Source: Anaerotruncus massiliensis (ex Togo et al. 2026) (lineage in GTDB: Bacteria > Bacillota > Clostridia > Oscillospirales > Ruminococcaceae). From it: a stretch of DNA of 64,000 nt. A program made the translations under genes and the position numbers. The stretch is from positions 1,039,501 through 1,103,500 of the forward strand of contig NZ_LT962687.1 in the NCBI RefSeq assembly GCF_900199635.1. The letters run 5' to 3'. Below the pieces are notes generated by a model. It ran no database searches. It was not told where the DNA came from and worked only from the letters and a program-made list of their open reading frames with translations. Below, one piece after another: positions 35,863-53,885 of the stretch (the first letter of the stretch is position 1; every line of letters starts with the position of its first letter).

Positions 35863-36441
35863 ATGTTCCATCCTGCGTCGTTTCTGGCCTATATCTTCGT
35901 CACCGCCTTTACGCCCGGCCCCAACACGATCCTGTCGATGTCCAACGCGGGACGGCTCGGCTTTCGCCGCAGCTTCCCCTTCAATCTAGGAATCTGGGCG
36001 GGATTTTCGGTGCTGATGCTGCTCTGTGGGGTGTTCTGCGGCGCGCTCTACACCTTTCTCCCGCGGATCAGGCCGTTCATGCTGGTGCTCGGCGCGGCCT
36101 ACATGCTCTGGCTCGCGTGGCGGACGCTGTGCAGCTCCTCCCGCCTCGAGGAAAGGAAGGGGGGCGCGGGCTTCCTGGACGGTATGCTGCTGCAGTTCGT
36201 GAACGTGAAGGTGATCATCTACGGCGTCACCTCCCTGTCCGCCTATGTCCTCCCTTATTTCCGCCAGCCGCTTGTCGTGGCCGGCTTTGCACTCCTGCTG
36301 GCCTTTGTCGGCTTCCTTGGGACGGTTTGCTGGGCGCTCTTCGGCAGCCTCTTCCACCGCCTTTTCTCTGAACATGCCCGCGTGGTCAACCTCGTGATGG
36401 CGCTCCTGCTCGTCTGCTGCGCGGTGTCCCTCTTTCTCTGA
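35863..36441 (+). CDS. LysE/RhtB-family amino acid exporter
   Basis: A 192-residue membrane protein with about six helices. The N-terminus has the family signature FTPGPNTILSMSNAGRLGFRR, with a further conserved region around GMLLQFVNVKVIIYG. Members export basic or neutral amino acids or homoserine-like compounds. GAGGAGG lies 9-10 bases before the ATG. The divergent XRE-cupin gene is the likely regulator. Confidence 0.88.
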   Translation: MFHPASFLAYIFVTAFTPGPNTILSMSNAGRLGFRRSFPFNLGIWAGFSVLMLLCGVFCGALYTFLPRIRPFMLVLGAAYMLWLAWRTLCSSSRLEERKGGAGFLDGMLLQFVNVKVIIYGVTSLSAYVLPYFRQPLVVAGFALLLAFVGFLGTVCWALFGSLFHRLFSEHARVVNLVMALLLVCCAVSLFL

Positions 36442-36457
36442 GCATCTGCGGGGGAAA

Positions 36458-36502
36458 CGAAAAATAGCTGCGGCCGCCCCGCGTAAGCGGGGCGGCCGCA
36501 GC
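36458..36502 (-). terminator. Terminator at the end of the carbamoyltransferase-cyclase operon
   Basis: A 16-bp stem (GCTGCGGCCGCCCCGC, arms 36467-36482 and 36487-36502) with loop GTAA, followed on the minus strand by TATTTTTC. Confidence 0.75.
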
Positions 36503-36541
36503 CGTGAGGAAGACACGAACCGTAATTTACGGAGAGATCAA

Positions 36542-37342
36542 TCAGACATCGTCGAAGCCGGTGAAGGCAACGATACGGCTGATGCAGCTCTCGCCCTCGG
36601 TGAACTTCCAGGGGAAGCAGCCGATGACGCAGCGCTTGTTGCTCAGCTCGTCGATCTGGCCGCCCAGGCACTCGGCGTGGATCGCCTCGTAGGGCTGGCA
36701 GAAGAGCTGGATGTGCATGGCCTGGTAGTTCTTCGGCCACTCGTAGATCTCGTTGAGGTGTTTGCCATAGCGCTCCATGAAGATCTTGTCGCAGGCCTCG
36801 GCCTCCATAGGCTCCCAGTCACGGATCTTGGTGTTCATCGGATGGTCGGCGGAACCGCAGTCGACGCCGATCCACTTGATTTCCATGTCGCGGACCCACT
36901 GGATGAAGTCCATCGACGGGCCGGGGTGACGCAGCATGTAGCGCTTCTCATCCGCGGTCGGCTGATCGAAGCCGTATTTGTGGTAGCCGGTGTTGATGAT
37001 CAGGATATCGCCCTTGTGGACGTCGGCGCGGTCGGTGATGTCCTTCGGGGTGTAGATGCCGAAATCCTGCGCCATATCGGACAAGTCGACCACGACGCCG
37101 GGGGCGCACAGCTTGGTCAGCTCGAGGGACGCGATGTCGCGGCCGGCGGTATCAAAATGCAGGGGGCCGTCGAGATGGGTGCCGACATGGTTGGAATGGG
37201 TCACCAGCTGGCCGTTCGCACCGTTCGGCGCCAGGCGTTTGAAGAATTTCATCTGCATGGGCTCATAGGTCGGCCACGGCGGGGTGAGGATACCAATCGG
37301 GATGCTCAGGTCATAGATTTTCACGTCGCTCCACTTGCTCAT
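36542..37342 (-). CDS. Cyclase-family metal-dependent hydrolase (KynB/isatin hydrolase fold)
   Basis: A 266-residue protein with the family motif HxGTHxDxPxHF (HVGTHLDGPLHF, about residues 52-63), whose His and Asp bind the metal, and further metal/active-site positions in IGVDCGSADHP. Relatives include kynurenine formamidase and isatin hydrolase, which open amide bonds, the latter in a ring. Here it ends the operon of AllF/AllG/AllH homologues. I infer that it hydrolyses a cyclic or linear amide/ureide intermediate, possibly the ring formed by the molybdenum hydroxylase. It has a strong AAGGAGG site, and a TTGTAT/ATACAA dyad lies 24 bases upstream, so it may be transcribed separately. Confidence 0.8.
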   Translation of the reverse strand: MSKWSDVKIYDLSIPIGILTPPWPTYEPMQMKFFKRLAPNGANGQLVTHSNHVGTHLDGPLHFDTAGRDIASLELTKLCAPGVVVDLSDMAQDFGIYTPKDITDRADVHKGDILIINTGYHKYGFDQPTADEKRYMLRHPGPSMDFIQWVRDMEIKWIGVDCGSADHPMNTKIRDWEPMEAEACDKIFMERYGKHLNEIYEWPKNYQAMHIQLFCQPYEAIHAECLGGQIDELSNKRCVIGCFPWKFTEGESCISRIVAFTGFDDV

Positions 37343-37365
37343 AAAATTGCCTCCTTAAGATTGAA

Positions 37366-37383
37366 TTGTATGTAGGTATACAA
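37366..37383. promoter_or_regulatory. Candidate regulator box A (TGTA-N8-TACA)
   Basis: TTGTATGTAGGTATACAA, a dyad of TTGTAT and ATACAA, just upstream of the cyclase gene. Similar dyads lie before pucR and in the xdh intergenic region. Confidence 0.45.
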
Positions 37384-37434
37384 ACGACTGTTTTCAGGTC
37401 CCCATGGGGACAGGATACGGGAGAGGGGAAGGAA

Positions 37435-38685
37435 TTATTCCATCCACTCGCCGCACGCCTCAAGCGCATCCTCGAAGCACTTCATCGGCGGGCTGACGAT
37501 ACCGGCGCCGACCTGGCCGACGCCCATGTCCTTGTGGGCGATACCGGTGTTGATGATCGGGCGGATGCCGGTCTCGATGACCTTGCGGATGTCGATGCCG
37601 GTGGCGCTGCCGCGGAAGTTGAGGGCCGGGATCTGGTAGGTGTTGCCCTCGCCCTCGGTGATCTCATACATCTGGGTGGAGTACTTGATGGAATCGGCCA
37701 CGGTGCCGCCGACGAACTGGACGATCGCGGGGGCCGCCGCCATGCAGAAGCCGCCGATGCCGGTGGTCTCGGTGATGCAGCTGTCGCCGACGTCCGGGTT
37801 GGCGTCCGCCTGGGTGTAGCCGGGGAAGTAGAGGCCGTCGATGATCTCCGCGGGAGCGGTGAACCAGCGGTTGCCGAAGCCGGAGACGCGGATGCCGAAT
37901 TCCGTTCCGTTGCGGGCCATCGTGTAGACGATGGTGCAGTAGGGGATGTTGCCCACGGGGTCCATGGTGGATTTGCAGGCGGGCATCGTGAGGTTCAGGA
38001 AGGTGTGGTCGTTGGAGTTGAGGAACTCGAGAACCTTGACGATCTTCTCCAGCGGGAAGTGGGTCTGCGCGATCGCGGGAGCGAGCTCACGGATCAGCAG
38101 GGAGGTGCCGGCCTTATTGCGGTTGTGGCCCTCGTCGCCCATCTGCAGGACCTGCGCGATCATCGTCTTGAGGTTGATCTCGCCGTGGATGGCGATGGCT
38201 TCCTTGACGATCGGGTAGAACTCGTTCTGGATCCATTTCAGGCGGTCGATGACCTCGTCGCCGAAGGCGCCGAAGCGGAGAACCTTGCCGAGGCCCTCGT
38301 TCACGGTGCAGTACGCGTAGTTGCCGGAGGTCTTGTTGACGACCTTCCAGACAGGCATCGAATAGGTCACGATACCGGCCATCGGGCCGACCGCGTTGTG
38401 GTGGTGGCAGGAGTCAAAGGTGATCTCGCCCGAGGCGGCCAGCTTTTCGGCCTCCTCCTTGTTGGCGGCGAGGCCCTCGTAGATGAGGCCGCCGATGACG
38501 GCGCCGCGGACCGGGCCGCACATTTTATCCCAGGTGACCGGCGGGCCGGCGTGAAGGATGGTCTTCTTGGTCATACCGGGGATGTCCTCTCCGGCAGTGC
38601 CCATCCCGACGAGCGTCGGCTGCGCGCCGAGGATGCGTTTTAACGCCTCCGCGTTGGCTTGGTTGATCTTTTCGCCCAACGTCAT
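37435..38685 (-). CDS. allG: AllG/YlbE homologue (DUF1116), carbamoyltransferase subunit
   Basis: A 416-residue protein aligned by eye with E. coli YlbE (about 419 residues). Shared blocks include ILHAGPPVTWDKMCGPVRGA, CHHHNAVGPMAGI, CTVNEGLGKVLRFGAFG, GIRVSGFGNRWFTAP and INTGIAHKDMGVGQVGAGI. YlbE (AllG) has been reported to work with FdrA (AllF) and YlbF (AllH) as an oxamate carbamoyltransferase, moving a carbamoyl group from a ureido acid (oxalurate) to phosphate. All three homologues are here in one operon. The substrate in this organism may differ. A ribosome site AGGAGG lies before the ATG. Confidence 0.82.
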   Translation of the reverse strand: MTLGEKINQANAEALKRILGAQPTLVGMGTAGEDIPGMTKKTILHAGPPVTWDKMCGPVRGAVIGGLIYEGLAANKEEAEKLAASGEITFDSCHHHNAVGPMAGIVTYSMPVWKVVNKTSGNYAYCTVNEGLGKVLRFGAFGDEVIDRLKWIQNEFYPIVKEAIAIHGEINLKTMIAQVLQMGDEGHNRNKAGTSLLIRELAPAIAQTHFPLEKIVKVLEFLNSNDHTFLNLTMPACKSTMDPVGNIPYCTIVYTMARNGTEFGIRVSGFGNRWFTAPAEIIDGLYFPGYTQADANPDVGDSCITETTGIGGFCMAAAPAIVQFVGGTVADSIKYSTQMYEITEGEGNTYQIPALNFRGSATGIDIRKVIETGIRPIINTGIAHKDMGVGQVGAGIVSPPMKCFEDALEACGEWME

Positions 38686-38733
38686 TGTAAATTCCTCCTG
38701 TTATCTGAAATTTGTGAATGGAACCGCGAAGAT

Positions 38734-38904
38734 TTATTTGAGCATTCCGAGCAGGGACGCCATCTTCTTGTTTCCGCCGGCGACCGGCTTCCAGTCGACG
38801 TGGATCGCTTCCTGCTTCTGGGTCTTGAGGTCCTCGTAGAAGGACTCGATGCCAAGGTTGACGATGTGCAGCTTTTTATTGAAGAGTTCGTTGAGTTTGC
38901 TCAT
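38734..38904 (-). CDS. 56-residue conserved-looking partner protein of the AllF/AllG system
   Basis: A small protein starting MSKLNELFNKKLHIVNLGIE with downstream HVDWKPVAGGNKK. AAGGGGG lies 8-9 bases before the ATG, it begins 14 bases after allF and ends about 50 bases before allG, so it is well placed for translation. I do not recognise a named family. The VNLGIESF...HVDWKP pattern reads like a domain that some larger FdrA/DUF1116 proteins carry at a terminus, so this may be a split-off fourth subunit. That relation is from memory and uncertain. Confidence 0.6.
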   Translation of the reverse strand: MSKLNELFNKKLHIVNLGIESFYEDLKTQKQEAIHVDWKPVAGGNKKMASLLGMLK

Positions 38905-38917
38905 GTTCCTGACCCCC

Positions 38918-40471
38918 TTACTTGATGTTCGAGATGATCCGCTCAACAAGGCGGGTCGCCTGCGAGTTGGTGGGCATCACGACCGCGCCCGCGTCGCGCA
39001 GCTGCTGCTGCGTCTTGGAGAGGGACTGCGGGTCCTCCTCGGTGCCGCAGACGGAGGTGATGACGCTCAGGTAGCGGCCGTCCTTCTCGGCGTTCGCCTT
39101 GGCGGTGCGGATGGCGTCGGCAAGGTCCTCGGCCGGGTTGGGATGGGAGCCGTAGCCGATGACGCAGTCCGCGAGGATGACGGCGACCGTCGGGTCGAGC
39201 GACTCCTTGACCACGCGCTCGGCGCGCAGGGACGGGTCGATCATCGGATGCGGGCGGCCGCGGGTGAAGTCGTCGTCGCCGTAGTCGAGGCAGGTGTTCT
39301 CGACGCCCACGTTGACGTCCTCGAGCTTGAATTCGGGCTTCAGCGGGATGTTGGAATAGACGCCGCCGAACGCCTTGGTGAGCATCTTCATCGCCTCGTC
39401 GCAGAGGGTGCCGCCGGTGTAGAGGCCGCGGACGTACTTCTGCGTGGGAGCGAACTTGGCGGTCTCCGCCTTGACGATCGCGTCGATCTCGGCGTCGGGG
39501 GCCGAGAAGCCGGTGAAGTCGACGACCGGCTCGCCCTTGGAGAGGGCGACCGCCTTGCGGGCCGCGTCCTCGAGGGAGAGGGCGGGGATGAGGCCGTATT
39601 TTTTGACCTGCTCGGGATCGCCGCCGACGAAGCAGACGACGACCGGCTTGCCGGAAGCGGCGGCCTGCTTGAGAATCTTATCCGCGATCTCCTCGGCCGG
39701 AGGCTTGGAGGTCAGCGCGATGACCTTGGTCTTGGGGTCCTGGATGAGGGCGTCGAGCGCGAAGGTCATCATGAGACCGCCGATCTCGATCTTGAGGTCG
39801 CGGCCGCCGGTGCCGATGACCTGCGAGACGCCGCCGCCGAACTGGCCGATCAGCGAGGAGAGCTCCTGGGTGCCGGTGCCGGAGGCGCCGACGATGCCGA
39901 TGTCGCCCGGGCGGATGACGTTCGCGAAGGCGAGCGGGACGTTGTTGATGATCGCGGTGCCGCAGTCGGGGCCCATCATGAGCAGCTCCTTGGAGACGGC
40001 TTTCTCCTTGAGGCGCTTCTCCTCCTCGATCGTGACGTTGTCGCTGAAGAGCATGACGTTGATGTCGTGGTCGAGGCACTCGTCCGCGACGCCGGCGGCA
40101 TACTTGCCGGGGACGGAGATGATCGCCAGGTTGAGCTGGTCATCCATCTTGATGGCGGAGGAGAGGGTCGGCGGATAGTAGTTGGCGCTGCTGTTCTCCT
40201 TCTTTTTGGTCAGCAGTTCGTCGACCTTCGCAAGGGCGGCGGCCATGACGTCGTCGTTTTCGCACCTGATGGCGACGAAGAAGTCGTTGGCGGTGATCGT
40301 CTCGAACTCGGGCGTCACAAGGCCGAGGTTGTGGGCGATGTCCCGGTTGAGGTCGGTGCCCATGCCGACGAGGGCCTCCTCGACGCCGTCGAGTTTCTTG
40401 AGGTCCTTGGAGATGAGCATGAGGGTTACCGAGTCGTAATAGGTATTCTGCTTGATATCCAGCTTAACCAA
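38918..40471 (-). CDS. fdrA: AllF/FdrA homologue, carbamoyltransferase subunit
   Basis: A 517-residue protein of the FdrA family (E. coli about 555), built like succinyl-CoA synthetase alpha plus beta parts. Visible blocks: LMMGPDCGTAIINNVPLAFAN, GIVGASGTGTQELSSLIGQ, QVIGTGGRDL, LYTGGTLCDEA and FTRGRPHPMIDPSLR. It is thought to be the catalytic/phosphate-handling part of the AllFGH complex. The best start is TTG at 40471, eight bases after GGAGG; the first in-frame ATG (40549) would overlap the upstream gene by 59 bases and lacks a ribosome site. Confidence 0.85.
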   Translation of the reverse strand: MVKLDIKQNTYYDSVTLMLISKDLKKLDGVEEALVGMGTDLNRDIAHNLGLVTPEFETITANDFFVAIRCENDDVMAAALAKVDELLTKKKENSSANYYPPTLSSAIKMDDQLNLAIISVPGKYAAGVADECLDHDINVMLFSDNVTIEEEKRLKEKAVSKELLMMGPDCGTAIINNVPLAFANVIRPGDIGIVGASGTGTQELSSLIGQFGGGVSQVIGTGGRDLKIEIGGLMMTFALDALIQDPKTKVIALTSKPPAEEIADKILKQAAASGKPVVVCFVGGDPEQVKKYGLIPALSLEDAARKAVALSKGEPVVDFTGFSAPDAEIDAIVKAETAKFAPTQKYVRGLYTGGTLCDEAMKMLTKAFGGVYSNIPLKPEFKLEDVNVGVENTCLDYGDDDFTRGRPHPMIDPSLRAERVVKESLDPTVAVILADCVIGYGSHPNPAEDLADAIRTAKANAEKDGRYLSVITSVCGTEEDPQSLSKTQQQLRDAGAVVMPTNSQATRLVERIISNIK

Positions 40472-40490
40472 TGCCGATTCCTCCAATATG

Positions 40491-41420
40491 TTAGATTTTT
40501 GCGCCGAAATAGATACCGCTGAGGATGTCCGTCCCGGACGTTTCCCCAAAGGTTATGACTCTGGAAGCAGCGCTTTCGAGCGACTGCGTGGGTCCGTTTG
40601 AAAAGAGCTGCCCGACCGTGTCGAGCACGTCCGCGGAGAGCAGGCCCTGCGATGAGCGGATGAGGAAGCTGCCGCTGATGACGTTGGTTTTGACGCGCGC
40701 GGCGCAGCCCATGCGCTGGGTGATGTCCATCGTGCGGAGCACGCGGCCCCGCGCGCCGCCCCGGGCGAGCATCGCCGCCATCATCCCGCACAGAAAGTCG
40801 TCGGAGGAGGGGGTGAGGCCCGGCCCGCAGCCGGCCATCGCGCCGGCCGCCGCGGAGATTTCCACGATCTGCCCCGTGTGCAGCGCGTCGAAGAGGCGCC
40901 GGACGCGGGGAAGCAGAAAAGCGGTGTAGTGGTTGTGGGGGAAGCGCTCCGCATAATCCGCGGAAGACCCCTCCTCCAGGTGGAAGACGAGCGGCGCCAT
41001 GCCCTCCGGCTTGCCCTCCTCGCCGATGACCCCCGCGAGGCGTTCGAGCCTGTCGGACAGGTCGGGCGGGACGATCAGCTCCTTGCGTTCGAGCACCGAA
41101 AGGTCGGTGTCCAGGGCGTTCGTCAGATCCACGTGCAGCATCCCGGCGGACGCCTCCCCCGGCAGGAGCATCGCGCTCATATCGGGCCGCAGCCCGAGGG
41201 CGGGGAAGGGGATGTCGGTGTCGATGCGCACCGAAAAGGGATAGAGCGGGCGGCATTTGGGAAGCAGCGTCACGAGCCCGAGGGGGGTGACAAGGTTGAC
41301 CGCCCGGTCAAAAACGGAGTGAACGGTTGCGGGACAGCCCCCGGCGGGGATCGATCTGCGCAGGCTGTGGCAGACCTCCAGTGCCGGGACCGCGCCTTCA
41401 TCTGTCTCTCTGCACATCAT
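40491..41420 (-). CDS. allH: AllH/YlbF homologue (DUF2877), carbamoyltransferase subunit
   Basis: A 309-residue protein with the DUF2877 signature: MAGCGPGLTPSSDDFLCGMMA (21-residue region at about 195-215) and TNVISGSFLIRSSQG near the C-terminus. YlbF/AllH is the third subunit described with FdrA and YlbE. It overlaps the 3' end of pucR by 23 bases and precedes fdrA by 19, so pucR, allH and fdrA are probably one transcript. Two adjacent ATGs (41418-41420 and 41415-41417 on the minus strand) are possible starts, neither with a strong ribosome site, as expected for coupled translation. Confidence 0.8.
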   Translation of the reverse strand: MMCRETDEGAVPALEVCHSLRRSIPAGGCPATVHSVFDRAVNLVTPLGLVTLLPKCRPLYPFSVRIDTDIPFPALGLRPDMSAMLLPGEASAGMLHVDLTNALDTDLSVLERKELIVPPDLSDRLERLAGVIGEEGKPEGMAPLVFHLEEGSSADYAERFPHNHYTAFLLPRVRRLFDALHTGQIVEISAAAGAMAGCGPGLTPSSDDFLCGMMAAMLARGGARGRVLRTMDITQRMGCAARVKTNVISGSFLIRSSQGLLSADVLDTVGQLFSNGPTQSLESAASRVITFGETSGTDILSGIYFGAKI

Positions 41421-43065
41421 AAATCTTCAGCGCGATCTGCAGATTGAGAAGCTGGTCGGCGTTGTCGAAGCTCACGCCGGCAAGTTCCTTGATCCGCTGG
41501 ATGCGGTAGGCGACGGTGTTGTAGTGGACGCCCAGCTCCTCCGCGAGTTTTTTGAGGTTGCCCCCGCACTTGAAGTAGGTCTGGAGCGTCCGCACGAGCT
41601 CGGAGTCGTGGTCGCGGTCGTAGTCGACGAGGACCTTGAGGGTCTCGGTGTAGAAGGACTGCAGCTCGTTCTGGAGGGTGTCGCAGGAGAGGAAGCGGTA
41701 GACACCCATATCCTCGAAATAGTGGACCCGCACCCCGCCCACCGAACCGCACCCGGCGGCACGCTTGGCTTCGGAGCAGCTTTTCCACAGGTCCGCGGTG
41801 TCGGGGTAGGCCCTGCCGATCCCGATGCTGATGAACTCGAGCAGCCCGTCATCCGCGAGCGCCTTGCCGAAGACCTCCATGAACTGGGAGACCTCCTGCT
41901 TGCAGAGCGCGGGAGAACGGGAGCTCTGCTCAAAGACGAGCACGATGTTGTCGCACTTGTTGACGAAGAGCAGCTTGTAGGAGGCGCTGCGCGACAGGCG
42001 GCGCAGGACGCGCACGATGTTGTTGTTCATCTTGTAGAGCGCGCCGTTGGAAAGGGAGAGGGAGTTGTGCGAATTAATCACCTGGACCACCGCCACCTGG
42101 TGGATGGCCTCGATGTCGAAATCGAAGTATTCGGCGTTGGCCAGCGCCTTGCGCTGGCTGAGCTCGTCGTTGACGAGCAGGTCGTCGAGGAAGGAGACCT
42201 TGTGGTTGTTCTCCATCTCGAAGAGGGAGATCTTTTTGAGCATCTCCAGCGCGATCAGCGAGGTGGAGGCTTCGATGACGGCCAGGTCCACGCTGGTGAC
42301 CTCGCGGTTGTCCTCCCACATGAAGATGTAGCCGTAGAGCTTCTTGTCGCTGTAGATGGGGACGGTGATCTTGCTGCACTCCCGCCCGTCCACCTTGCAC
42401 AGCTCCCGCCAGCTCAGGGCGTTGTCGCTGCCGTGCCGCTCGCCGGAATTGTCCCGCACGCAGTTTTCCATCTGGCGGTAGATCGCGTCGCGGCGGCTGT
42501 AGGTGGCGGAGATGACGTAGGAGGAGAAGAACTCGTTGTAGATGGCGACGCTGTTGCCGTAGCGGTTGTGCAGCGTCTGGGTGATCGCCTGAAGGTTCCC
42601 GCCGCTGAGCATCGTCGCGGTGAGCGACTTCTGCAGGTCGTAGATGTCCATGAGCACCTGCGCCTGGTTGTTGACGATGGTGGTCAGCACGGGGGTGATG
42701 ATCTTGGAGAAGGAAACCTCCGGCGGGATCTCAAAGATGGGGAAGGAGAGCGCGTTGGCGGCGTTGATGACCGCCTGCGGGGTTTCGCGAATATACCGCT
42801 TGGGCTTGATGCCCAGCCCCACGACGCCGCGGCTGTTGAGGGCGGGGACCAGCTCGACGAGCTTTTCCACATCGTCCTTGATCGAATAGGCGGTGGTGAC
42901 GATCAGCTCCCCGCCGCTCACCCAGTCGATGATGTCGGGCACCTCCATGACGTTCATCGAGGTGACGACGCGGTCGAGGCCGCCCCTGCCCGCGATCAGC
43001 TTGGCGCCCTGGAGAACCTCCATCTCGAGCACCGACCTGACAGAAATGCCGTATGTTTTATCCAT
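41398..43065 (-). CDS. pucR: PucR-family transcriptional regulator
   Basis: A 555-residue regulator: N-terminal PucR/PurC-like ligand domain (VRSVLEMEVLQGAKLIAGRGGLDR in part, residues about 8-130), a central GAF-like region, a GGDEF-like CdaR region, and the C-terminal HTH_30 (LAEELGVHYNTVAYRIQRIKEL, about 510-532). In Bacillus PucR senses purine-catabolic intermediates and activates the degradation genes. Its place as first gene of the allH-fdrA-allG set, facing a molybdenum hydroxylase and nucleobase permease, argues for the same kind of role here. AGGAGG lies nine bases before the ATG. Confidence 0.9.
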   Translation of the reverse strand: MDKTYGISVRSVLEMEVLQGAKLIAGRGGLDRVVTSMNVMEVPDIIDWVSGGELIVTTAYSIKDDVEKLVELVPALNSRGVVGLGIKPKRYIRETPQAVINAANALSFPIFEIPPEVSFSKIITPVLTTIVNNQAQVLMDIYDLQKSLTATMLSGGNLQAITQTLHNRYGNSVAIYNEFFSSYVISATYSRRDAIYRQMENCVRDNSGERHGSDNALSWRELCKVDGRECSKITVPIYSDKKLYGYIFMWEDNREVTSVDLAVIEASTSLIALEMLKKISLFEMENNHKVSFLDDLLVNDELSQRKALANAEYFDFDIEAIHQVAVVQVINSHNSLSLSNGALYKMNNNIVRVLRRLSRSASYKLLFVNKCDNIVLVFEQSSRSPALCKQEVSQFMEVFGKALADDGLLEFISIGIGRAYPDTADLWKSCSEAKRAAGCGSVGGVRVHYFEDMGVYRFLSCDTLQNELQSFYTETLKVLVDYDRDHDSELVRTLQTYFKCGGNLKKLAEELGVHYNTVAYRIQRIKELAGVSFDNADQLLNLQIALKIYDVQRDR

Positions 43066-43108
43066 GGGGGAACCTCCTAACGGACCGGCTTACCCTGTCA
43101 TTACTTTC

Positions 43109-43136
43109 ATCATACTATTAAAAAAAGCGAAGTCAA
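43109..43136 (-). promoter_or_regulatory. Promoter of the pucR operon
   Basis: TTGACT (43131-43136) and TATGAT (43109-43114) on the minus strand, spacing 16. Confidence 0.65.
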
Positions 43137-43142
43137 CATTTG

Positions 43143-43159
43143 TTGTGTAAAATATACAA
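43143..43159. promoter_or_regulatory. Candidate regulator box B upstream of the pucR promoter
   Basis: TTGTGTAAAATATACAA, a dyad ending 6 bases upstream of the -35 box, a usual activator position. It resembles boxes A and C. Confidence 0.45.
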
Positions 43160-43401
43160 TGTAGAAAAATTCGCTTTGTTTTGATCGACTTTGACATAGG
43201 AGTTTTTCAATATAAATGGCCCAAAAAATTGTGAAAATAGCCAAAGAAGTCGGAAAAATAAACGAATTGTTAAAGAAATGCCAATTTTTAGAGCGCAAAA
43301 CGCTGTGGAACTTTTACAACCTCACAAAACCTTCTCAGGAGGGGCCGCCGTCCCGCCCGCCTGACGGGCGGGACAGCGGCACAGGGGGAGGGACACGCAA
43401 A
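43160..43401. other. Intergenic region upstream of pucR, no gene seen
   Basis: AT-rich to about 43330. A hairpin GTCCCGCCCG/CGGGCGGGAC (43350-43374) follows the carboxyltransferase stop on the minus strand but lacks a T-run, so read-through into the pucR operon is possible. No supported ORF. Confidence 0.5.
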
Positions 43402-44922
<1,521 letters not shown>

Positions 44923-44996
44923 TTTGGTTCCATCCCTTCATAGTCTGGTACCGGCGCGGCGGCCGGGAGTTTCGCCGGGAAGCCCGGCGGGGGCCG

Positions 44997-46508: not shown

Positions 46509-46513
46509 GGCGC

Positions 46514-47719
46514 TCACTCCTTCTTCGGCAGCGTGTCGATGTAGGCCTTGATGTCGTCCTCCGAATAGCCGAGGATGTCGCGCAGGACCTCGACGTTGTG
46601 TTCGCCGACCTGCGGGGCGGGCTCGCTGGGGAGCTCATCCTCGGGCGGGACGGTGCTCAGCTTGACCGGGTTGCCCGCGACCTTGACCTTGCCCATGTGG
46701 GTCTGCTCGACTTCGACGAGCATGTTGCGGTAGTTGATCTGCGGGTCCTCGAACAGCCGGTCGATCGAGTTGATCGGGCCGCAGGGGATGCCGTTGTCGA
46801 CGAAGATCTTGAGCCACTCGTCGGTGGTTTTGTCCTTGATCCGCTCCTGCATCAGGTCGCTGAGCTCCTGCATATGCTTGTTGCGCTCGGGGTTGGTGGA
46901 GAACTTGGGATCGTTGATGAGCTCCTGGCGGCCGGTGACCTCGCAGAACTTGGCGAAGAGCTTGTTGTTGCCGGCGGCGACGATGACCCAGCTGTCCTTG
47001 GTGCGGTAGGCCTCGAAGGGGGTGATGGACGGGTGCTTGAGTCCGAGCGGCCGCGCGACCTGGCCGGTCGCGGAGTACTTGGCGATGGCGTTCTCGAGAA
47101 TGGCGACCTGGCAGTCGAGCATCGAGATGTCGACAAGCTGGCCCTCGCCGGTCTTTTCGCGCTCATAGAGGGCGGCCAGCGCGCCGTAGGCGCCCATCAT
47201 GCCGGCGATGATGTCGCCGATCGAGGTGCCGACGCGCACGGGGTTTCCGTTCGGCTCGCCGGTGATGCTCATGACGCCGCCCATCGCCTGGACGATCATA
47301 TCGTAGGCCGGCCTGCCGGAATAGGGCCCGGTCTGGCCGAAGCCGGAGATTGCAACATAGACGCAGCGGGGATTGATCTTCTTGACGTCCTCATAGCCGA
47401 AGCCCATCTTGTCGAGCGCGCCGGGCTTAAAGTTCTGAACGAACACGTCCACGTTCTTGACCAGGTCGGTCAGCACCTTTTTGCCCTCGGGGGTCTTGGC
47501 GTTGACTTCGAGGCTCTTCTTGCCGCGGTTGATGCTCAGGAAGTAGATGCTCTGCCCTTCCACGTAGGGGCCGTAGGCGCGGGCGTCGTCGCCCGAACCG
47601 GGCATCTCGCAGTGGATGACCTCGGCGCCGAGGTTGCGCAGCATCATGCCGCAGTAGGGGCCCGCGAGGACCTTGGTCATATCCAGCACCTTGATGCCGC
47701 TCAGTGGTTTGGTTGTCAT
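46514..47719 (-). CDS. Class III (CaiB/BaiF/Frc-type) CoA-transferase
   Basis: A 401-residue protein of the family III CoA-transferases: start LSGIKVLDMTKVLAGPYCGMMLRNLGAEV in part, the RGKKS loop, GFGQTGPYSGRPAYD and catalytic Asp in LVDISMLDCQVA (about residue 179). Such enzymes move CoA between carboxylic acids, for example formyl-CoA and oxalate. Here it is the first gene of an operon with an amidase and a carboxyltransferase, so it probably activates the acid released by the amidase. Malonate or oxalate are candidate acceptors. GGGAGG precedes the ATG. Confidence 0.88.
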   Translation of the reverse strand: MTTKPLSGIKVLDMTKVLAGPYCGMMLRNLGAEVIHCEMPGSGDDARAYGPYVEGQSIYFLSINRGKKSLEVNAKTPEGKKVLTDLVKNVDVFVQNFKPGALDKMGFGYEDVKKINPRCVYVAISGFGQTGPYSGRPAYDMIVQAMGGVMSITGEPNGNPVRVGTSIGDIIAGMMGAYGALAALYEREKTGEGQLVDISMLDCQVAILENAIAKYSATGQVARPLGLKHPSITPFEAYRTKDSWVIVAAGNNKLFAKFCEVTGRQELINDPKFSTNPERNKHMQELSDLMQERIKDKTTDEWLKIFVDNGIPCGPINSIDRLFEDPQINYRNMLVEVEQTHMGKVKVAGNPVKLSTVPPEDELPSEPAPQVGEHNVEVLRDILGYSEDDIKAYIDTLPKKE

Positions 47720-48417
47720 AGTGTGATTCCTCCCGTTTCATATAATGTATACAATCTTCCACGGCCGGCCGCCGTTTGCCGCGCCGGCCCTATGAGAAAG
47801 CCGGCCCCGCCGGCGGTTTTTGAGACGAAATCAATTACCTGTTGTAATAACTCCATATCATGTGCTATACTTACAGCAATAAATCCATGGGAATCTTGTG
47901 GATTCTTCCCAAAATGCCGCGCATCCGTCCCATCCGCCCCGCAGGGTCACGAAAAGAGGACGGGAAGGAGCCTTCCGCTGCCGGCCGGACGATTTTGCAT
48001 GGTAAAGAAGGAAATTCTTTCTTTTCGATGTGACCGCGGCCGTTTTCAAGGGGAAATCTAGTTTGTAGGTTATCTACATTATAGTGGATAATCCCCAACT
48101 TGTAAACTGGAGGAAATGCCTTTTGATCACAGAAAATGTTGATAATATTTATGCATTTCGCCCAATATTACAAAAAACGCAATTTTTTTCGGGCAAACTG
48201 CATTGTGATTTTTTCAGCATATCGGGGATTTTTTAATAGGTGCGTAAACAAACATGGCCTTCAAAAATCATAAGTATGACCAAGCCAAATATGCGATTCC
48301 CAAAAAACCTGACGGTCCGCCATAAAATGTTGTGAAGTTTTTATAAATCGATATGATCGAAAATGCCTAAATTCTCTTGCGAAATCTATTCATTACAGAA
48401 AATTTGGAAAAAATCGA
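47720..48417. other. AT-rich divergent control region with dyads, no gene seen
   Basis: From about 48050 the region is far more AT-rich than its surroundings. It holds TGTATACA (47746-47753) just upstream of the CoA-transferase gene, box C TTGTAGGTTATCTACA (48063-48078; TGTA-N7-TACA) and a dyad TCGAT-ATG-ATCGA (48348-48360). No convincing promoter was found for the minus-strand operon, as expected if an activator is needed. No small ORF with a ribosome site stands out. Confidence 0.5.
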
Positions 48418-48446
48418 TTGATATGATTTGCCCATCTCAGTATAAT
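48418..48446 (+). promoter_or_regulatory. Promoter of the molybdenum hydroxylase operon
   Basis: TTGATA (48418-48423) and TATAAT (48441-48446), spacing 17, 44 bases before the first gene. Confidence 0.75.
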
Positions 48447-48490
48447 AAGGTTAGTGGTAGTGACATTATGCCTAAAAAGGAGTGCTTATC

Positions 48491-49327
48491 GTGAAACAAT
48501 TTAATTATTTAGCACCAAAATCCTTGCCCGAAGCACTTGCATTCCTGGCGGAGCACGGGGACTCCGCCGTGGTTTTTAACGGCGGCACCGACGTCGTCGT
48601 GCGGCTTCGCGACAACCTGATCGCCCCTGAGTACGTGATCGACATCAAGAAGATCCCCGGCCTGGACACGATCACGTTCGACGAAAAGACCGGCCTCACC
48701 ATCGGCGCCTGCGTCACGATGAACGAGATCGGCGCCAACGAGTTCGTCCAGAAGTACTATCCCTACCTCGGCAAGGCGGCGCTGTCGGTCGGCTCCAAGC
48801 AGGTGCGCAACCGCGCGACCTGCATCGGCAACATCGTCAACGCCTCCCCGCTGGCCGATACCGGCACCCCGCTGCTCGCCAACGACGCTGTGATCCTGGC
48901 CGAGGGCCCGGAGGGCAAGCGGGAGATCCCCATCCGTGAATTCTTCATCTTCGTGCGCAAGACCGCGCTGAAAAAGGATGAGATCGTCACCGCCATCCGG
49001 GTGCCCTACCATGCGGGCTCGGAGGGCGTGTACACCAAGATCTCCCGCCGCCGCGAGGTCGACCTCTCCACCGTCTGCGCCACCGTGGTGCGGGACGGGG
49101 ACGACTGGCGCATCGCGTTCGGCTCCGTCGCGCCCACCCCTCTGCGGCTCGTCAAGACCGAGGAGCTGCTCCGCGGCAAAAAGCTGGACGGCGCGCTGAT
49201 CGAGCAGGCGGCCGAGCTGGCCAAGACCGAGGTCGCGCCGATCGACGACGTGCGCGCCTCCAAGGAGTACCGCGTCACCATCGTGGGGCTGATCGTCAAG
49301 AGAAGCCTCGAAGCCCTGGCGAAATAA
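48491..49327 (+). CDS. Molybdenum hydroxylase FAD-binding subunit (XdhB-like)
   Basis: A 278-residue FAD subunit of the xanthine dehydrogenase family. FAD-binding blocks NGGTDVVVRLRD (about residues 31-42) and CIGNIVNASPLADTGTPLLA (about 112-131) are clear, with a CO-dehydrogenase flavoprotein C-terminal domain after. It passes electrons from the Fe-S subunit to NAD or another acceptor. GTG 48491 is eight bases after AAAGGAG; another GTG is three codons earlier. First of three genes encoding a complete enzyme. Confidence 0.92.
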   Translation: MKQFNYLAPKSLPEALAFLAEHGDSAVVFNGGTDVVVRLRDNLIAPEYVIDIKKIPGLDTITFDEKTGLTIGACVTMNEIGANEFVQKYYPYLGKAALSVGSKQVRNRATCIGNIVNASPLADTGTPLLANDAVILAEGPEGKREIPIREFFIFVRKTALKKDEIVTAIRVPYHAGSEGVYTKISRRREVDLSTVCATVVRDGDDWRIAFGSVAPTPLRLVKTEELLRGKKLDGALIEQAAELAKTEVAPIDDVRASKEYRVTIVGLIVKRSLEALAK

Positions 49328-49340
49328 GGAGGGGATACAT

Positions 49341-49826
49341 ATGAAATACCAGGTCAATTTCTTCGTCAACGAGGAGCCGGTCGAGCTCTACGTCGACGCC
49401 AATAAAACGATGCTCACCGTCCTGCGCGAGGAGCTCGACCTCACGGGCGCCAAGGAAGGCTGCGGCGCCGGCGAGTGCGGCGCGTGCACCGTCATCATGG
49501 ACGGCAAGCCGGTCAACGCCTGCCTCGTGCTGGCGCCCGAGCTGGACGGCAAACACATCACCACCGTCGAGGGGCTGGCCGACCGCAAGGGCAACCTCTC
49601 CCCGCTGCAGGAAGCGTTCATCAAGCATGCCGCGCTCCAGTGCGGCTTCTGCACGCCGGGCTTCCTGATGACCGCCACGGCGCTCCTGAAGGAGAATCCG
49701 CACCCGACCCGCGACGAGATCAAGGCGGGCATCAGCGGCAACCTCTGCCGCTGCACCGGCTACAAACGGATCATCGAGGCCATCGAGGACGTTGCGGCAC
49801 ATACGGAAGGAGGCGAGCGCAAATGA
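49341..49826 (+). CDS. Molybdenum hydroxylase [2Fe-2S] subunit
   Basis: A 161-residue protein with two [2Fe-2S] clusters: plant-ferredoxin type CGAGECGACTV...C (about residues 42-62) and the helical-domain CGFCTPGF...CRCTGY motif (about 100-138). It relays electrons between the molybdenum site and FAD. It follows the FAD gene by 13 bases with AGGAGG, and its stop overlaps the start of the large subunit (ATGA). Confidence 0.95.
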   Translation: MKYQVNFFVNEEPVELYVDANKTMLTVLREELDLTGAKEGCGAGECGACTVIMDGKPVNACLVLAPELDGKHITTVEGLADRKGNLSPLQEAFIKHAALQCGFCTPGFLMTATALLKENPHPTRDEIKAGISGNLCRCTGYKRIIEAIEDVAAHTEGGERK

Positions 49827-52138
49827 GGACAGTCGGAACAACGATCGACAGGGTTGACGGCGTCAAAAAGGTCACCGGCCAGGCGAAATACGTGGACGAC
49901 ATCAGGATGTCCCGGATGCTCTACGCCCAGGTGAAGCGCAGCCCCTACGCGCACGCGAAAATCCTGAGCATCGACACGTCGGAGGCGGAGAAGCTGCCGG
50001 GCGTGAAGAGCGTCATCACGGGCGACTATTATAAGAAACGCGGCGGCCTCTACCTCGAGGACAAAAACTTCCTCGCGGTGGGCACCGCGAAATACCGCGG
50101 CGAAGCCGTCGCGGCGGTGGCGGCTGAGACGCTGGACATCGCGAAGGCGGCGGTCGAGCTGATCAAGGTGGAGTACGAGGAGCTGCCGGCGGTCACCAAC
50201 CCGGTCGAGGGCATGAAGCCGGACGCGCCGCTCATCCATCCCGACCTGGGCACCTACAAGGTCGCCCCGATCTTCCACCCGGTGCCGGGCACCAACATCT
50301 CCCACCACTACAAACTCCGCAAGGGTGACGTCGACAAGGGCTTTGCCGAGGCGGATTACGTCGCGGAGCACACCTTCTATATCCCGCACGTCCAGCACGT
50401 GCCCATCGAGCCGCACGTGGCCGTCGCGCAGTACGAGGCGGACGGAAAGCTCACCGTGTGGGCGAGCTGCCAGTCCCCCTTCGCGGTGCGCCAGGCGCTG
50501 GCGACCTCCTTCGACATCCCGCTCAACAAGGTGCGGGTCATCTCCCCGTATGTCGGCGGCGGCTTCGGCTCCAAGGCGGGCACCACCCTCGAAGGCATCG
50601 TCATCCCGCTCTCGATGCTCAACTGCGGGCGCCCGGTCAAGATGACCTACACCCGTGAGGAGGAGTTCGAGGACGCGTATGTCCGCCAGGGCGTCTATGC
50701 GACCCTCAAGACCGGCGTGCGCAAGTCGGACGGCAAGATCCTCGCCCAGAAGATCGAGTATGTCTGGGACGGCGGCGCTTACACCGAGTACGGCGTCAAC
50801 ATCGTCAAGGCGGCTGGCATCGCCTGCCCCGGCCCCTACGACATCGACAACATCTGGTGCGACAGCTACTGCGTCTACACCAACCATCCGGTCGGCGGCC
50901 CGTACAGGGGCTTCGGCATGTGTGAGATCCACTTCGCCATCGAGCAGAACCTCGATATGATCGCGCACGAGATCGGCATGTCGGAGGTCGACATCCGCCG
51001 GGTCAACGGACTGCGGGCGGGCGGCGCCACCGCGACCGGCCAGATCCTCGAGGACTGCGGCTATCAGGACTGCCTCGAGACGGTTGTCAAGGAACTCGAG
51101 TACGACAAGCCCTGCGAGCAGGTCGCGCCCAACCTCATCCGTGCCAAGGGCATCGCGGGCGGCTGGAAATCGCCGTCTCAGCCCACTGACGTGGCCTCGG
51201 CCGCGATCATCCGCATGAACGAGGACGGCACCTTTATGCTCATGACGAGCGGCCAGGACATCGGCCAGGGCTCCGACACGGTGCTCACCCAGATCGCCGC
51301 CGAGGTGCTCGACATCGATCCGAGCAAGATCACCATCCGCACCGGCGACACCGACCACACCCCTTACGAGTGGCAGACGGTCGCGAGCCGCACCACCTAC
51401 TGCGCGGGCAACGCGGTCAAACTGGCCGCCGAGGACGCGAAGAACGAGATCCTCGAGTTGGCGCAGATCAAGTTCGGATGCAGCAAGCGCGACCTCGAGC
51501 TCAAGGACGGCTATGTGGTGCATAAGATCCACAAGGATAAAAAGGTCCCGTTGAGCACCTTCGCGCTCGGGCTCACCCTGCCCGACGCGTCGGGCATCCA
51601 CGGCCCGCTGATCGGCAAGGGCTCCTTCGTGGTCCCGAACAACGTGGGCTACGACCAGGAGACCGGCCAGAGCCCCAAGCCGGTGGCCTTCTGGACGGTC
51701 GGCGTCAACGGCGCCGAGGTCGAGGTCAACACCGACACGGGCGAGATCCGCGTGCTCAAGATGATCTCCTGCTTCGACCCCGGAAAGGTCATCAACCCGG
51801 CGCTCTACGACGCGCAGGTGGAGGGCGCGATGGTGCAGGCCCTGGGCACGGCGCTCTTTGAGGAGCTGATGCTCAAGGACGGGCGGATTCTCAACCGCAA
51901 CTTCGTCGACTACAAGATCCCGACCGCGGACGACATGCCCGAACTGACGGTGCGCGTCGCGGAGCACGAGGAGCCGACGGGCCCGTACGGAGCGCGCGGC
52001 ATCGGCGAGCCGGTCATGGTACCGGGCGCGCCGGCGATCGCCAACGCGGTGGCCAACGCGATCGGGTGCCGGTTCTTCCGGATGCCGATCAGGGCCGACG
52101 ACGTGCTCAAGGCGCTCAAGGAGAAGAAAGCCCAGTAG
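49823..52138 (+). CDS. Molybdenum hydroxylase catalytic subunit (XdhA-like)
   Basis: A 771-residue molybdopterin-binding subunit of the xanthine dehydrogenase family. Motifs: PYVGGGFGSKAG, the substrate-pocket GGPYRGFGMCEIHFAIEQ, the molybdopterin contact GQDIGQGSDTVLTQIAAE, and the catalytic Glu in GARGIGEPVM (about residue 736). It hydroxylates an N-heterocycle with water as oxygen source. Substrate is open: xanthine, hypoxanthine, uracil/thymine or nicotinate are all possible in this family. The downstream permease with UraA-type residues favours a pyrimidine. No molybdenum insertion factor (XdhC type) lies nearby. Confidence 0.92.
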   Translation: MRTVGTTIDRVDGVKKVTGQAKYVDDIRMSRMLYAQVKRSPYAHAKILSIDTSEAEKLPGVKSVITGDYYKKRGGLYLEDKNFLAVGTAKYRGEAVAAVAAETLDIAKAAVELIKVEYEELPAVTNPVEGMKPDAPLIHPDLGTYKVAPIFHPVPGTNISHHYKLRKGDVDKGFAEADYVAEHTFYIPHVQHVPIEPHVAVAQYEADGKLTVWASCQSPFAVRQALATSFDIPLNKVRVISPYVGGGFGSKAGTTLEGIVIPLSMLNCGRPVKMTYTREEEFEDAYVRQGVYATLKTGVRKSDGKILAQKIEYVWDGGAYTEYGVNIVKAAGIACPGPYDIDNIWCDSYCVYTNHPVGGPYRGFGMCEIHFAIEQNLDMIAHEIGMSEVDIRRVNGLRAGGATATGQILEDCGYQDCLETVVKELEYDKPCEQVAPNLIRAKGIAGGWKSPSQPTDVASAAIIRMNEDGTFMLMTSGQDIGQGSDTVLTQIAAEVLDIDPSKITIRTGDTDHTPYEWQTVASRTTYCAGNAVKLAAEDAKNEILELAQIKFGCSKRDLELKDGYVVHKIHKDKKVPLSTFALGLTLPDASGIHGPLIGKGSFVVPNNVGYDQETGQSPKPVAFWTVGVNGAEVEVNTDTGEIRVLKMISCFDPGKVINPALYDAQVEGAMVQALGTALFEELMLKDGRILNRNFVDYKIPTADDMPELTVRVAEHEEPTGPYGARGIGEPVMVPGAPAIANAVANAIGCRFFRMPIRADDVLKALKEKKAQ

Positions 52139-52157
52139 GCTTAAAGAAAATAAGGAC

Positions 52158-52200
52158 CGGGCGGCCGCGGCCATGCGGCCCGGCCGCCCGGAGGTGTGTT
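52158..52200 (+). terminator. GC-rich hairpin between hydroxylase and permease genes
   Basis: CCGGGCGGCCG/CGGCCGCCCGG stem with T-run delayed by seven bases (AGGTGTGTTTTT). It may be a partial terminator that lowers permease expression. Confidence 0.4.
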
Positions 52201-52290
52201 TTTGGACAGCATGGCGGTATAAAGGGCCCCGGCCCTGAAATACATAGAGAAATGGAGACAAGGCTAATACTATGTTGAGGAGGTAAGTCA

Positions 52291-53622
52291 ATGGCCAATA
52301 CCAATCGAGGAATCTATAATGCCCCGCAGGAACTCGGCTGGCCGAAAACGGTTGTTTTGGGCTTGCAGCACGTCTTTGCGATGTTTGGCGCAACGGTTAT
52401 CGTCCCGATCATCACAGGATTGAACGTACAGGTAACGCTCTTCTGCGCCGGTATCGGCACGCTGCTTTTCCACTTTATCACCAAGCGGAAAGCGCCTGTG
52501 TTCCTGGGCTCTTCCTTCGCGTTCCTCGGCGGTTTCGCGGCTGTCAAGGCACTGCCGCTGACCAATTCCGCCGGCGTTGCGCTGACGGAGGCTGAAAAGC
52601 TCCCGTACGCCTGCGGCGGTATCGTCTGCGCCGGTCTGGTCTATGTTATTCTGGCGGCGCTGATCCGCGCGTGCGGCATCAAGCGGATCATGCACTTCTT
52701 CCCGCCGGTCGTTACCGGCCCGATCATCATCCTCATCGGCCTGATCCTCGCTCCGAACGCGATCAACGACGCGAGCGGCAACTGGCTGCTGGCAGTCGTC
52801 GCGATCATCGTGATCCTTGTGGCAAACGTCTTTGGCCGCGGCATGGTCAAAATCATCCCGATCCTGCTTGGTATCATCGCTTCCTATCTTGTGGCGCTGG
52901 TCACCGGGCATGTTGACTTCTCCGCCTTGGCGGCGGCGAACTTTGTCGGTATCGCGCCGTTCACCCTTGCGAAGTTTGACGTAAGCGCCATTCTGATCAT
53001 GGTCCCGATCTCGCTGGCCTCCATGATGGAGCATGTCGGCGACATCGCGGCGGTCAGCGCGACCTGCGAGCGCAACTTCCTGGCGAACCCCGGCCTGCAC
53101 CGCACCCTCATCGGCGACGGTCTTGCCACGAGCCTTGCCGGCCTCATCGGCGGCCCGGCGAACACCACCTACAGTGAGAACACCGGCGTTCTGGCGCTGA
53201 CCAAGGTCTACGACCCGATCGTCATGGAAATCGCCGCCGTTGTGGCGATCCTGCTCTCCTTCATCCCGAAGTTCGGTGAGTTCGTCCATACCATCCCGAC
53301 TGCGACGATCGGCGGCGTTTCCTTCATCCTCTACGGCATGATCTCCGCCATCGGCGTACGCAACCTGGTTGAGAACCAGGTCGACCTGACCGAGTCCCGC
53401 AACGTTCTGATTGCGGCGATCATCCTCGTCAGCGGCCTCGGCTTCAACAACATCGGCGGCATCTCCTTCCAGATCGGCGGGGCGGGCTTCACGCTCAGCG
53501 GCCTTGCGATCGCGGCAATCCTCGGTATCCTGCTGAATGCGATTCTTCCCGGAAACGACTATATCTTTAACGAGGAAGAATACGAGACCGTGGCTACCAA
53601 GGATCTGAATGCGGACCTCTAA
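52291..53622 (+). CDS. NCS2 nucleobase permease, uracil (UraA) type
   Basis: A 443-residue permease with about 14 helices. LQHVFAMFGATVIVPI and APVFLGSSFAFLGG match UraA closely. The uracil-binding glutamates are present in MEHVGD (UraA Glu241) and NTTYSENTGV (UraA Glu290); xanthine/urate permeases of the family usually have a Gln-Asn pair at the second site. So uracil or a related pyrimidine is the likeliest substrate, brought in with H+ or Na+. GAGGAGG precedes the ATG. Base use is a little less GC-rich than in neighbours. It probably feeds the adjacent hydroxylase. Confidence 0.88.
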   Translation: MANTNRGIYNAPQELGWPKTVVLGLQHVFAMFGATVIVPIITGLNVQVTLFCAGIGTLLFHFITKRKAPVFLGSSFAFLGGFAAVKALPLTNSAGVALTEAEKLPYACGGIVCAGLVYVILAALIRACGIKRIMHFFPPVVTGPIIILIGLILAPNAINDASGNWLLAVVAIIVILVANVFGRGMVKIIPILLGIIASYLVALVTGHVDFSALAAANFVGIAPFTLAKFDVSAILIMVPISLASMMEHVGDIAAVSATCERNFLANPGLHRTLIGDGLATSLAGLIGGPANTTYSENTGVLALTKVYDPIVMEIAAVVAILLSFIPKFGEFVHTIPTATIGGVSFILYGMISAIGVRNLVENQVDLTESRNVLIAAIILVSGLGFNNIGGISFQIGGAGFTLSGLAIAAILGILLNAILPGNDYIFNEEEYETVATKDLNADL

Positions 53623-53684
53623 AAACCATCAGAAGTCTGTGAGATTTTGCTCCATTTCTCTGCAAACTTACAGAAATCGGGGTT

Positions 53685-53725
53685 GGGCGGCTCTTTCCGG
53701 CGACGGAAAGGGCCGCCCTTCCTTT
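53685..53725 (+). terminator. Terminator after the permease gene
   Basis: GGGCGGCTCTTTCC pairs with GGAAAGGGCCGCCC (one G-U pair) around GGCGAC, followed by TTCCTTTT. Confidence 0.65.
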
Positions 53726-53885
53726 TGCTGGAAGGCGGCGCGGGCGCCCCACCGGGATTTCACACAGATTTTACATTGCGGCACGGTCCGCTCCCCGGCA
53801 AACTGCCAAAATGTAAAAATTGGCTTGCAATTTTTATGCACAAGGTGCAGAATGATTGCAGATTATGAGAAGGTGCGGTTTGCTG

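Follow-up and report, generated by a model that had tools for sequence, protein, structure and literature searches.

The window analysed here is a stretch of 64,000 nucleotides from the genome of the gut bacterium Anaerotruncus massiliensis (assembly GCF_900199635.1, contig NZ_LT962687.1, 1,039,501–1,103,500), and positions are numbered from its first nucleotide. Between 36542 and 53622 it contains an island of genes that probably serves the breakdown of a pyrimidine base. The island is built as two divergent units, each closed by a strong terminator-like stem (Table 1). Starting at the promoter region that separates them, the minus-strand unit encodes, in order of transcription, a class III CoA-transferase, an amidase, a carboxyltransferase, a PucR-family regulator, homologues of AllH, AllF and AllG, and a cyclase-family hydrolase. 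The plus-strand unit begins with the FAD, 2Fe–2S and molybdenum (Mo) subunits of a molybdenum hydroxylase and then continues as an NCS2 permease. Within both units the genes are spaced by −59 to 336 bases. A sequence-only reading of the same DNA had already grouped these genes, and all are present where it placed them; the cluster is genuine and its limits are sharp. The promoter and terminator assignments are consensus matches only, with 14 promoter-like sites compared with a shuffled mean of 3.4, and 26 terminator-like sites compared with 14.0. An Rfam scan of 36000–54500 gave no RNA element at gathering score. The open reading frame (ORF) of the Mo subunit was listed from 49475, an over-extended start, and the start is placed at 49823.

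Table 1. Features of the island, in window positions (minus-strand features are written from high to low)
Feature	Position	Strand	Evidence
Class III CoA-transferase, proposed malonate CoA-transferase	47719-46514	-	PF02515 438 bits; succinate-glutarate 364 of 750, oxalate 355 of 522
Amidase-signature enzyme, proposed malonamate amidase	46517-44997	-	PF01425 316 bits; no equivalog cut-off reached among NCBIfam matches listed
Biotin-type carboxyltransferase, proposed malonyl-CoA decarboxylase subunit	44922-43402	-	PF01039 638 bits; mmdA 852, cut-off 999
PucR-family regulator	43065-41398	-	PF07905 129 bits, cut-off 33.5
AllH homologue, transcarbamylase subunit	41420-40491	-	PF11392 77.5 bits, cut-off 25; 32% to E. 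coli AllH, 115 residues
AllF (FdrA) homologue, transcarbamylase subunit	40549-38918	-	NF004760 506 bits, cut-off 433; 40% to E. coli AllF
AllG homologue, transcarbamylase subunit	38685-37435	-	PF06545 326 bits, cut-off 27; 48% to E. coli AllG
Cyclase-family metal hydrolase, proposed barbiturate ring opener	37342-36542	-	PF04199 118.5 bits, cut-off 23.1
Terminator-like stem, 17 pairs, ends minus unit	36503-36466	-	Consensus scan
Divergent promoter region, 762 bases	47720-48481		11-of-12 promoter-like matches: 48106-48078 (minus), 48418-48446 (plus)
Mo hydroxylase FAD subunit	48482-49327	+	PF00941 159 bits
Mo hydroxylase 2Fe-2S subunit	49341-49826	+	PF01799 117 bits
Mo hydroxylase molybdopterin subunit, proposed uracil hydroxylase	49823-52138	+	PF02738 257, PF20256 251 bits
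NCS2 permease, uracil type	52291-53622	+	Uracil permease model 319, RutG 300, xanthine permease 215 bits
Terminator-like stem, 15 pairs, ends plus unit	53685-53718	+	Consensus scan

Properties of the encoded proteins

Three adjacent genes are homologous to allF, allG and allH of E. coli. The true start of AllF probably lies further in, since it matches the E. coli protein only from residue 27 onwards. In a quick tree of AllG sequences, which has long branches, E. coli AllG groups with those of loci L123, L127 and L128 (support 99). The window sequence falls in a branch of 84 rows (Shimodaira–Hasegawa-like approximate likelihood ratio test 89), outside the allantoin-type branch of the E. coli protein. 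Profile searches of the island proteins revealed no allantoin genes.

The metal-site motif of the cyclase-family hydrolase is invariant across 35 aligned sequences. In a structural search its predicted model (predicted local distance difference test (pLDDT) 81) is closest to the isatin hydrolases (E 2e-12, template modelling (TM) score ∼0.65). PF09663, the AtzD/barbiturase family, has no match in 391 genomes of the class, that of the window included, and no control genome matched it either.

The permease scores below the equivalog cut-offs of all three models to which it was compared (477 bits for the uracil permease). Its nearest solved relatives are the UraA structures, and a tree of 51 permeases places it on the side of UraA and RutG and away from XanQ, XanP and UacT. 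We take the position of UraA Glu290 to mark substrate type in these permeases. This column is Gln in the E. coli purine carriers XanQ, XanP and UacT; it is Glu in the window permease and in 41 of the 45 other permeases from related loci, the remainder having Gln (2) or Ala (2). To judge from sequence, the permease is thus of the uracil type.

The Mo hydroxylase falls short of the xanthine dehydrogenase equivalog scores, reaching 556 of 780 bits for XdhA, 217 of 310 for XdhB and 203 of 217 for XdhC. Its sequence does not point to a particular substrate. The CoA-transferase is closest to the dicarboxylate CoA-transferases, the oxalate enzyme included.

Recurrence of the gene set in related loci

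Related loci were collected by a contig scan with the window AllG, which gave 95; the best 80 of the 95 were kept, a sample biased to close relatives. The counts below refer to the 50 of these 80 that span at least 17 kb (the long loci), the 30 shorter ones lying outside them. A gene was scored as present on a tblastn match of at least 60 bits with the window protein, or on membership of a BLAST cluster. The cyclase is present in all 50, AllF in 49, an AllH-like protein in 43, some Mo hydroxylase subunit in 42, an NCS2 permease in 40 (a count that mixes several NCS2 kinds) and a PucR-like protein in 38 (some of these matches being weak or on the other strand). The accessory genes are less frequent: CoA-transferase 25, amidase 10, thiolase 9, nitrilase-family enzyme 8, carbamate kinase 8, carboxyltransferase 6 and the malonate decarboxylase subunit MdcA 5. 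Permease, hydroxylase and cyclase occur jointly in 35 of the 50, and in many loci hydroxylase, permease and AllFG–cyclase lie on one strand in one gene order. The two arms that the sequence-only reading had joined, hydroxylase with permease and AllFGH with cyclase, thus do occur together in related genomes. Since the same genes recur together across many genera, the island is more than a chance association.

Detection depends on the query for AllH, that of the window finding 15 of the 80 loci and its relatives finding the 43 long loci counted above. Carbamate kinase is found in 12 of the 80, and the single one checked exceeds its cut-off. Two loci (L036 and L097) are near-copies of the window locus; L036 is scored as lacking the hydroxylase since its stretch stops before that gene. 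YqeB accompanies the cluster in 20 of the 50 long loci (for example L052:14164-14979), with XdhC, MobA-like and YqeC proteins in fewer; as the name given to YqeB refers to selenium-dependent Mo enzymes, some hosts may have a hydroxylase that depends on selenium.

Most of the carriers are Clostridia; others bear the labels Bacteroidota, Chlorobiota, Ignavibacteriota, Spirochaetota, Elusimicrobiota or Riflebacteria. In Riflebacteria and kin (L099–L101, L104–L106) AllFG and the cyclase are found without the hydroxylase in the stretch covered. A contig labelled Lutibacter sp. B2 (Bacteroidota; L107) holds a Clostridia-like copy of the cluster, and is mislabelled, contaminating or the product of transfer.

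Among the 391 class genomes AllG is present in 24, and these include all 13 genomes with a cyclase match of E ≤ 1e-20 and all 8 with a Mo subunit of at least 58% identity. In those 8, five of which belong to one family, the Mo gene is on the same contig as AllG within ∼12 kb in four, at 37 kb in one, and on another contig in three (draft assemblies).

A contrast set of 12 AllG loci, with at most 50% identity to the window AllG and stretches of 4–20 kb, contains neither cyclase nor hydroxylase; the window type of AllFGH is therefore a separate branch in a separate context. The set was scored by tblastn, as longest-frame ORF picking is unreliable on GC-rich stretches, where long antisense ORFs arise. 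One of its loci (L130) carries an amidase at 45%. M20-family hydrolases are present in the three loci of the E. coli AllG group; L128 encodes in addition an allantoinase-like amidohydrolase and a permease of the allantoin/cytosine type, all of which is in keeping with allantoin breakdown. Four further loci (L124, L125, L129 and L148) hold a paralogous second set, with AllG ∼56–60% and cyclase ∼43% identical to those of the window, and in some a nitrilase-family enzyme and a different permease. One genome (G020) holds both sets, and the paralogous one perhaps serves a different base or heterocycle.

The five long loci with MdcA are L050, L053, L056, L059 and L060. In all three checked it exceeds the curated cut-off of 789 bits (L050 967, L053 804, L059 806). 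In L050, which belongs to another lineage and has AllH, MdcA adjoins a subunit of Na+-malonate decarboxylase (TIGR03136, 650 bits, cut-off 597), and lies ∼5 kb from AllF on the opposite strand. The other four, with Lachnospiraceae or Clostridia labels, have the order MdcA, carboxyltransferase, gamma-like protein, biotin carrier, sodium-pump beta, and then amidase, AllF, AllG, cyclase, hydroxylase and permease; the identities of the three small subunits were checked for L059 only. In L058, as in these four, AllF and AllG lie beside malonate decarboxylase genes without a recognisable AllH. MdcA exceeds its cut-off in just one of the 391 class genomes, which lacks AllG.

The CoA-transferase, thiolase and MdcA never co-occur within one long locus, as if MdcA, the CoA-transferase and the thiolase module were alternative treatments of one product. 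Similarly, the amidase and the nitrilase-family enzyme are never found in the same long locus. In the thiolase variant (L072, L074–L077, L080, L086, L108, L109 and others), hosted by Clostridium species and by loci labelled Bacteroidota or Chlorobiota, a thiolase is accompanied by a small BbsA-like protein and a third protein, and the CoA-transferase is absent. Modelling (pLDDT 71) gives this third protein a GNAT-like fold (TM score ∼0.4 to 0.55), which does not settle its role. The permease of the Clostridium variant is a different one, placed by the tree within the clade of E. coli UraA itself; two different uracil-type carriers are thus joined to the same AllFG–cyclase core.

A proposed route and its alternatives

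From the genes, their order and recurrence, the permease type, and the malonate decarboxylase and carbamate kinase genes observed in some related loci, we infer each reaction of the following route and the order of its steps. Uracil would be imported by the permease and converted to barbiturate by the three-subunit Mo hydroxylase, with oxygen taken from water and not from O2. The cyclase-family hydrolase would open the barbiturate ring to give ureidomalonate, which is oxalurate plus one CH2. AllFGH would then transfer the carbamoyl group to phosphate, giving carbamoyl phosphate and malonamate, and a carbamate kinase encoded elsewhere in the genome would use the former to make ATP. Malonamate would be cleaved to malonate and ammonia by the amidase (by the nitrilase-family enzyme in other loci), after which the class III CoA-transferase would form malonyl-CoA. 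Finally, the carboxyltransferase, together with a distant biotin carrier and sodium-pump subunits, would yield acetyl-CoA.

The island thus probably encodes an anaerobic, energy-conserving oxidative route for a pyrimidine base, most likely uracil. The sequence-only reading had put forward an anaerobic, energy-yielding pyrimidine route, and the comparison of loci supports it; the malonate decarboxylase of relatives and the uracil-type permease add to the fit. In three respects that reading is altered. It took carbamoyl transfer to lead straight to malonate and so missed a step, as transfer from ureidomalonate leaves malonamate and an amide-cleaving enzyme is needed. It gave ring opening to the cyclase or the amidase; the cyclase is retained, being present in 50 of 50 long loci and having an isatin-hydrolase-like model, and the amidase, present in 10 of 50, is set aside for this role. 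Its statement that carbamate kinase and dihydropyrimidinase are lacking holds for the island and not for the genome, where a carbamate kinase and a hydantoinase-family gene are found.

We are more tentative, and close to evenly divided, about a fuller version. Here uracil would be fermented completely, with acetate, CO2 and ammonia as products; the route would occur in Clostridia and several further phyla, and its three endings would be interchangeable. It would conserve energy twice, through ATP from carbamoyl phosphate and through sodium-pumping decarboxylation of the malonyl group. Four of its enzymes would have new activities, namely hydroxylation of uracil by the Mo enzyme, opening of barbiturate by an isatin-hydrolase-like barbiturase, carbamoyl transfer from ureidomalonate by an AllFGH-type transcarbamylase and cleavage of malonamate by the amidase.

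Several of the parts are encoded elsewhere in this genome, which comprises 3.15 Mb in 7 contigs and lies near A. colihominis, the source of the nearest AllG among the loci (92%). The carbamate kinase is at 2163 kb (393 bits, cut-off 358), and the hydantoinase-family gene (605 bits, cut-off 393) is ∼1.1 Mb from the island, near further Mo hydroxylase genes. Both fall in a region (C7:2163116-2192976; L143–L145) that also contains an NCS2 permease and probably serves purines. A biotin carrier is located at 493–497 kb, flanked by a second carboxyltransferase and an OadA-like gene, with another biotin/lipoyl match at 1167 kb. At 728 kb there are a sodium-pump beta subunit and a gamma-like protein (34 bits, cut-off 36); a second beta is at 2197 kb. 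The distant carrier and pump subunits may serve the island carboxyltransferase. The island itself is flanked by efflux genes, a two-component system and LysE- and MATE-family exporters; at 27226–34114 of the window an AcrB-family pump of the resistance–nodulation–division type and an HlyD-type adaptor lie beside the two-component system, in a Clostridia genome.

A number of observations weigh against the uracil route. The Mo subunit is under every equivalog cut-off, and its best matches, to 4-hydroxybenzoyl-CoA reductase and xanthine dehydrogenase, do not name uracil. By sequence, the solved structures that match the cyclase best, at no more than 36 bits, are those of a Bacillus hydrolase and of kynurenine formamidases. 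Purine-type (Gln) permeases are also held by L038, L050 (where it is a further, shorter one) and L086. The CoA-transferase is almost as near to the oxalate enzyme as to the succinate–glutarate enzyme. An end at malonate has gene context in five of the 50 long loci; the window itself has only the CoA-transferase and carboxyltransferase, and a profile search of the 391 class genomes found no MdcA or MadA match in that of the window. With the carrier and pump subunits encoded away from the island, the last step has to borrow its parts. Four of the five MdcA loci (L053, L056, L059 and L060, close relatives) lack a recognisable AllH in the stretch covered, and it was sought without success in the genes after the permease; these loci may not be full copies, or AllH may be elsewhere, dispensable or replaced. 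Both the amidase and the nitrilase are lacking from 32 of the 50 long loci, and all of CoA-transferase, thiolase and MdcA from 11. Lastly, the probability of zero overlap, uncorrected for descent, is 0.14 for amidase and nitrilase, 0.025 for CoA-transferase and MdcA, and 0.0008 for CoA-transferase and thiolase.

The same chemistry could act mainly on thymine, by way of 5-methylbarbiturate, ureidomethylmalonate, methylmalonamate, methylmalonate and methylmalonyl-CoA to propionyl-CoA. The carboxyltransferase is indeed nearest to the methylmalonyl-CoA decarboxylase model mmdA, though below its curated score, and in L059 the gamma-like protein and the biotin carrier likewise show similarity to subunits of that enzyme. 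However, the MdcA and TIGR03136 matches of related loci are to malonate-specific models and the permease is closest to uracil carriers, so that thymine is unlikely to be the main substrate; both bases may be used.

Alternatively, AllFGH could act on oxalurate as in E. coli, within a purine, hydantoin or parabanate route that continues from oxamate to oxalate and oxalyl-CoA. The homology to the E. coli proteins, the score of the CoA-transferase with the oxalate enzyme and the Gln-type permeases of some loci are consistent with this. Yet most loci have a uracil-type permease, the window AllG is in its separate branch in an island without allantoin genes, and malonate decarboxylase genes, present in five related loci, fit the chemistry of ureidomalonate where oxalate gives no call for them. 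We regard this route as improbable, and an allantoin/oxalurate cluster is set aside on permease type, AllG branch and the malonate decarboxylase of relatives.

It is also quite improbable that two independent systems are neighbours here, a nucleobase hydroxylase unit and an AllFGH–CoA unit acting on some unrelated ureido acid or amide. The units of the window are divergent, and 8 of the 50 long loci have no hydroxylase in reach, which also counts against the uracil route; but the single order and strand of hydroxylase, permease and AllFG–cyclase in many loci, and their co-occurrence across the 391 genomes, argue for one system. Finally, a purine ring route, in which xanthine or urate would be the product of the hydroxylase, the cyclase would open its pyrimidine half and AllFGH would decarbamoylate a ureido-imidazole acid, is very improbable: Mo hydroxylases and PucR are often linked to purines and the 2Fe–2S subunit comes near its XdhC model, but the CoA-transferase, carboxyltransferase and MdcA would be left unexplained, the permease type does not fit, and a more purine-like region exists in the same genome.

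Comparison with known systems

Gut and sediment are rich in RNA bases, and to our knowledge the routes of pyrimidine breakdown that have been described in anaerobes are of the reductive kind. Among titles and abstract openings, with most subscription journals outside the scope, no anaerobic oxidative pyrimidine route was found, nor AllFGH homologues assigned to one; a description elsewhere is possible. If the uracil route is correct, ATP formed by transcarbamylation would explain anaerobic life on uracil, and the large branch of AllFGH homologues would gain a role other than allantoin breakdown. The proposal offers testable functions for the Mo hydroxylase, the cyclase-family hydrolase and the amidase together and, speculatively, might be relevant to what becomes of uracil-like drugs in the intestine.

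PMC11326118 describes E. coli allFGHK as an anaerobic allantoin operon, and PMC12625717 and PMC3364942 deal with AllFGH, or the genes for it, as part of allantoin/oxalurate breakdown. The island shares homologous AllF, AllG and AllH with that operon, and carbamate kinase is also present in the clusters of some relatives. It differs in having AllG from a separate branch, no allantoin genes, and AllFGH linked to a hydroxylase, a cyclase and a uracil-type permease, with malonate decarboxylase in some relatives. The sequence-only reading had distinguished the island from the classic allantoin and reductive pyrimidine clusters, and the distinction stands, with neither allantoinase nor dihydropyrimidinase in the island.

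The cyclase resembles isatin hydrolase and kynurenine formamidase (PF04199) in fold and metal-site motif. These enzymes hydrolyse an amide, as the cyclase would, and in isatin hydrolase the amide is cyclic. The cyclase is 17–21% identical to the isatin hydrolases when the structures are aligned, and the substrate proposed for it is barbiturate. MdcA and sodium-pump subunits, as in the Na+-translocating malonate decarboxylase of the Malonomonas rubra type, share loci with AllF, AllG and cyclase in the five MdcA loci. By contrast, the window has a class III CoA-transferase, in a genome lacking MdcA and with pump and biotin carrier elsewhere.

The Rut and reductive pyrimidine pathways would share the uracil substrate, and the island permease is on the UraA/RutG side. 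The island genes include no RutA-like monooxygenase, dihydropyrimidine dehydrogenase or dihydropyrimidinase, and a reductive pyrimidine cluster is set aside.

The oxidative pyrimidine catabolism of aerobes, reportedly described by Soong et al. in 2001 and 2002, is said to employ uracil/thymine dehydrogenase, barbiturase and ureidomalonase. The proposed route would have in common with it the intermediates barbiturate and ureidomalonate and the end product malonate. Unlike it, the island would open the ring with a member of the cyclase family instead of the AtzD/barbiturase family, would transfer the carbamoyl group to phosphate in place of hydrolysis to urea, and would add an amidase and malonyl-CoA decarboxylation, in hosts that are anaerobic. 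We judge the island to be a new variant of oxidative pyrimidine catabolism.

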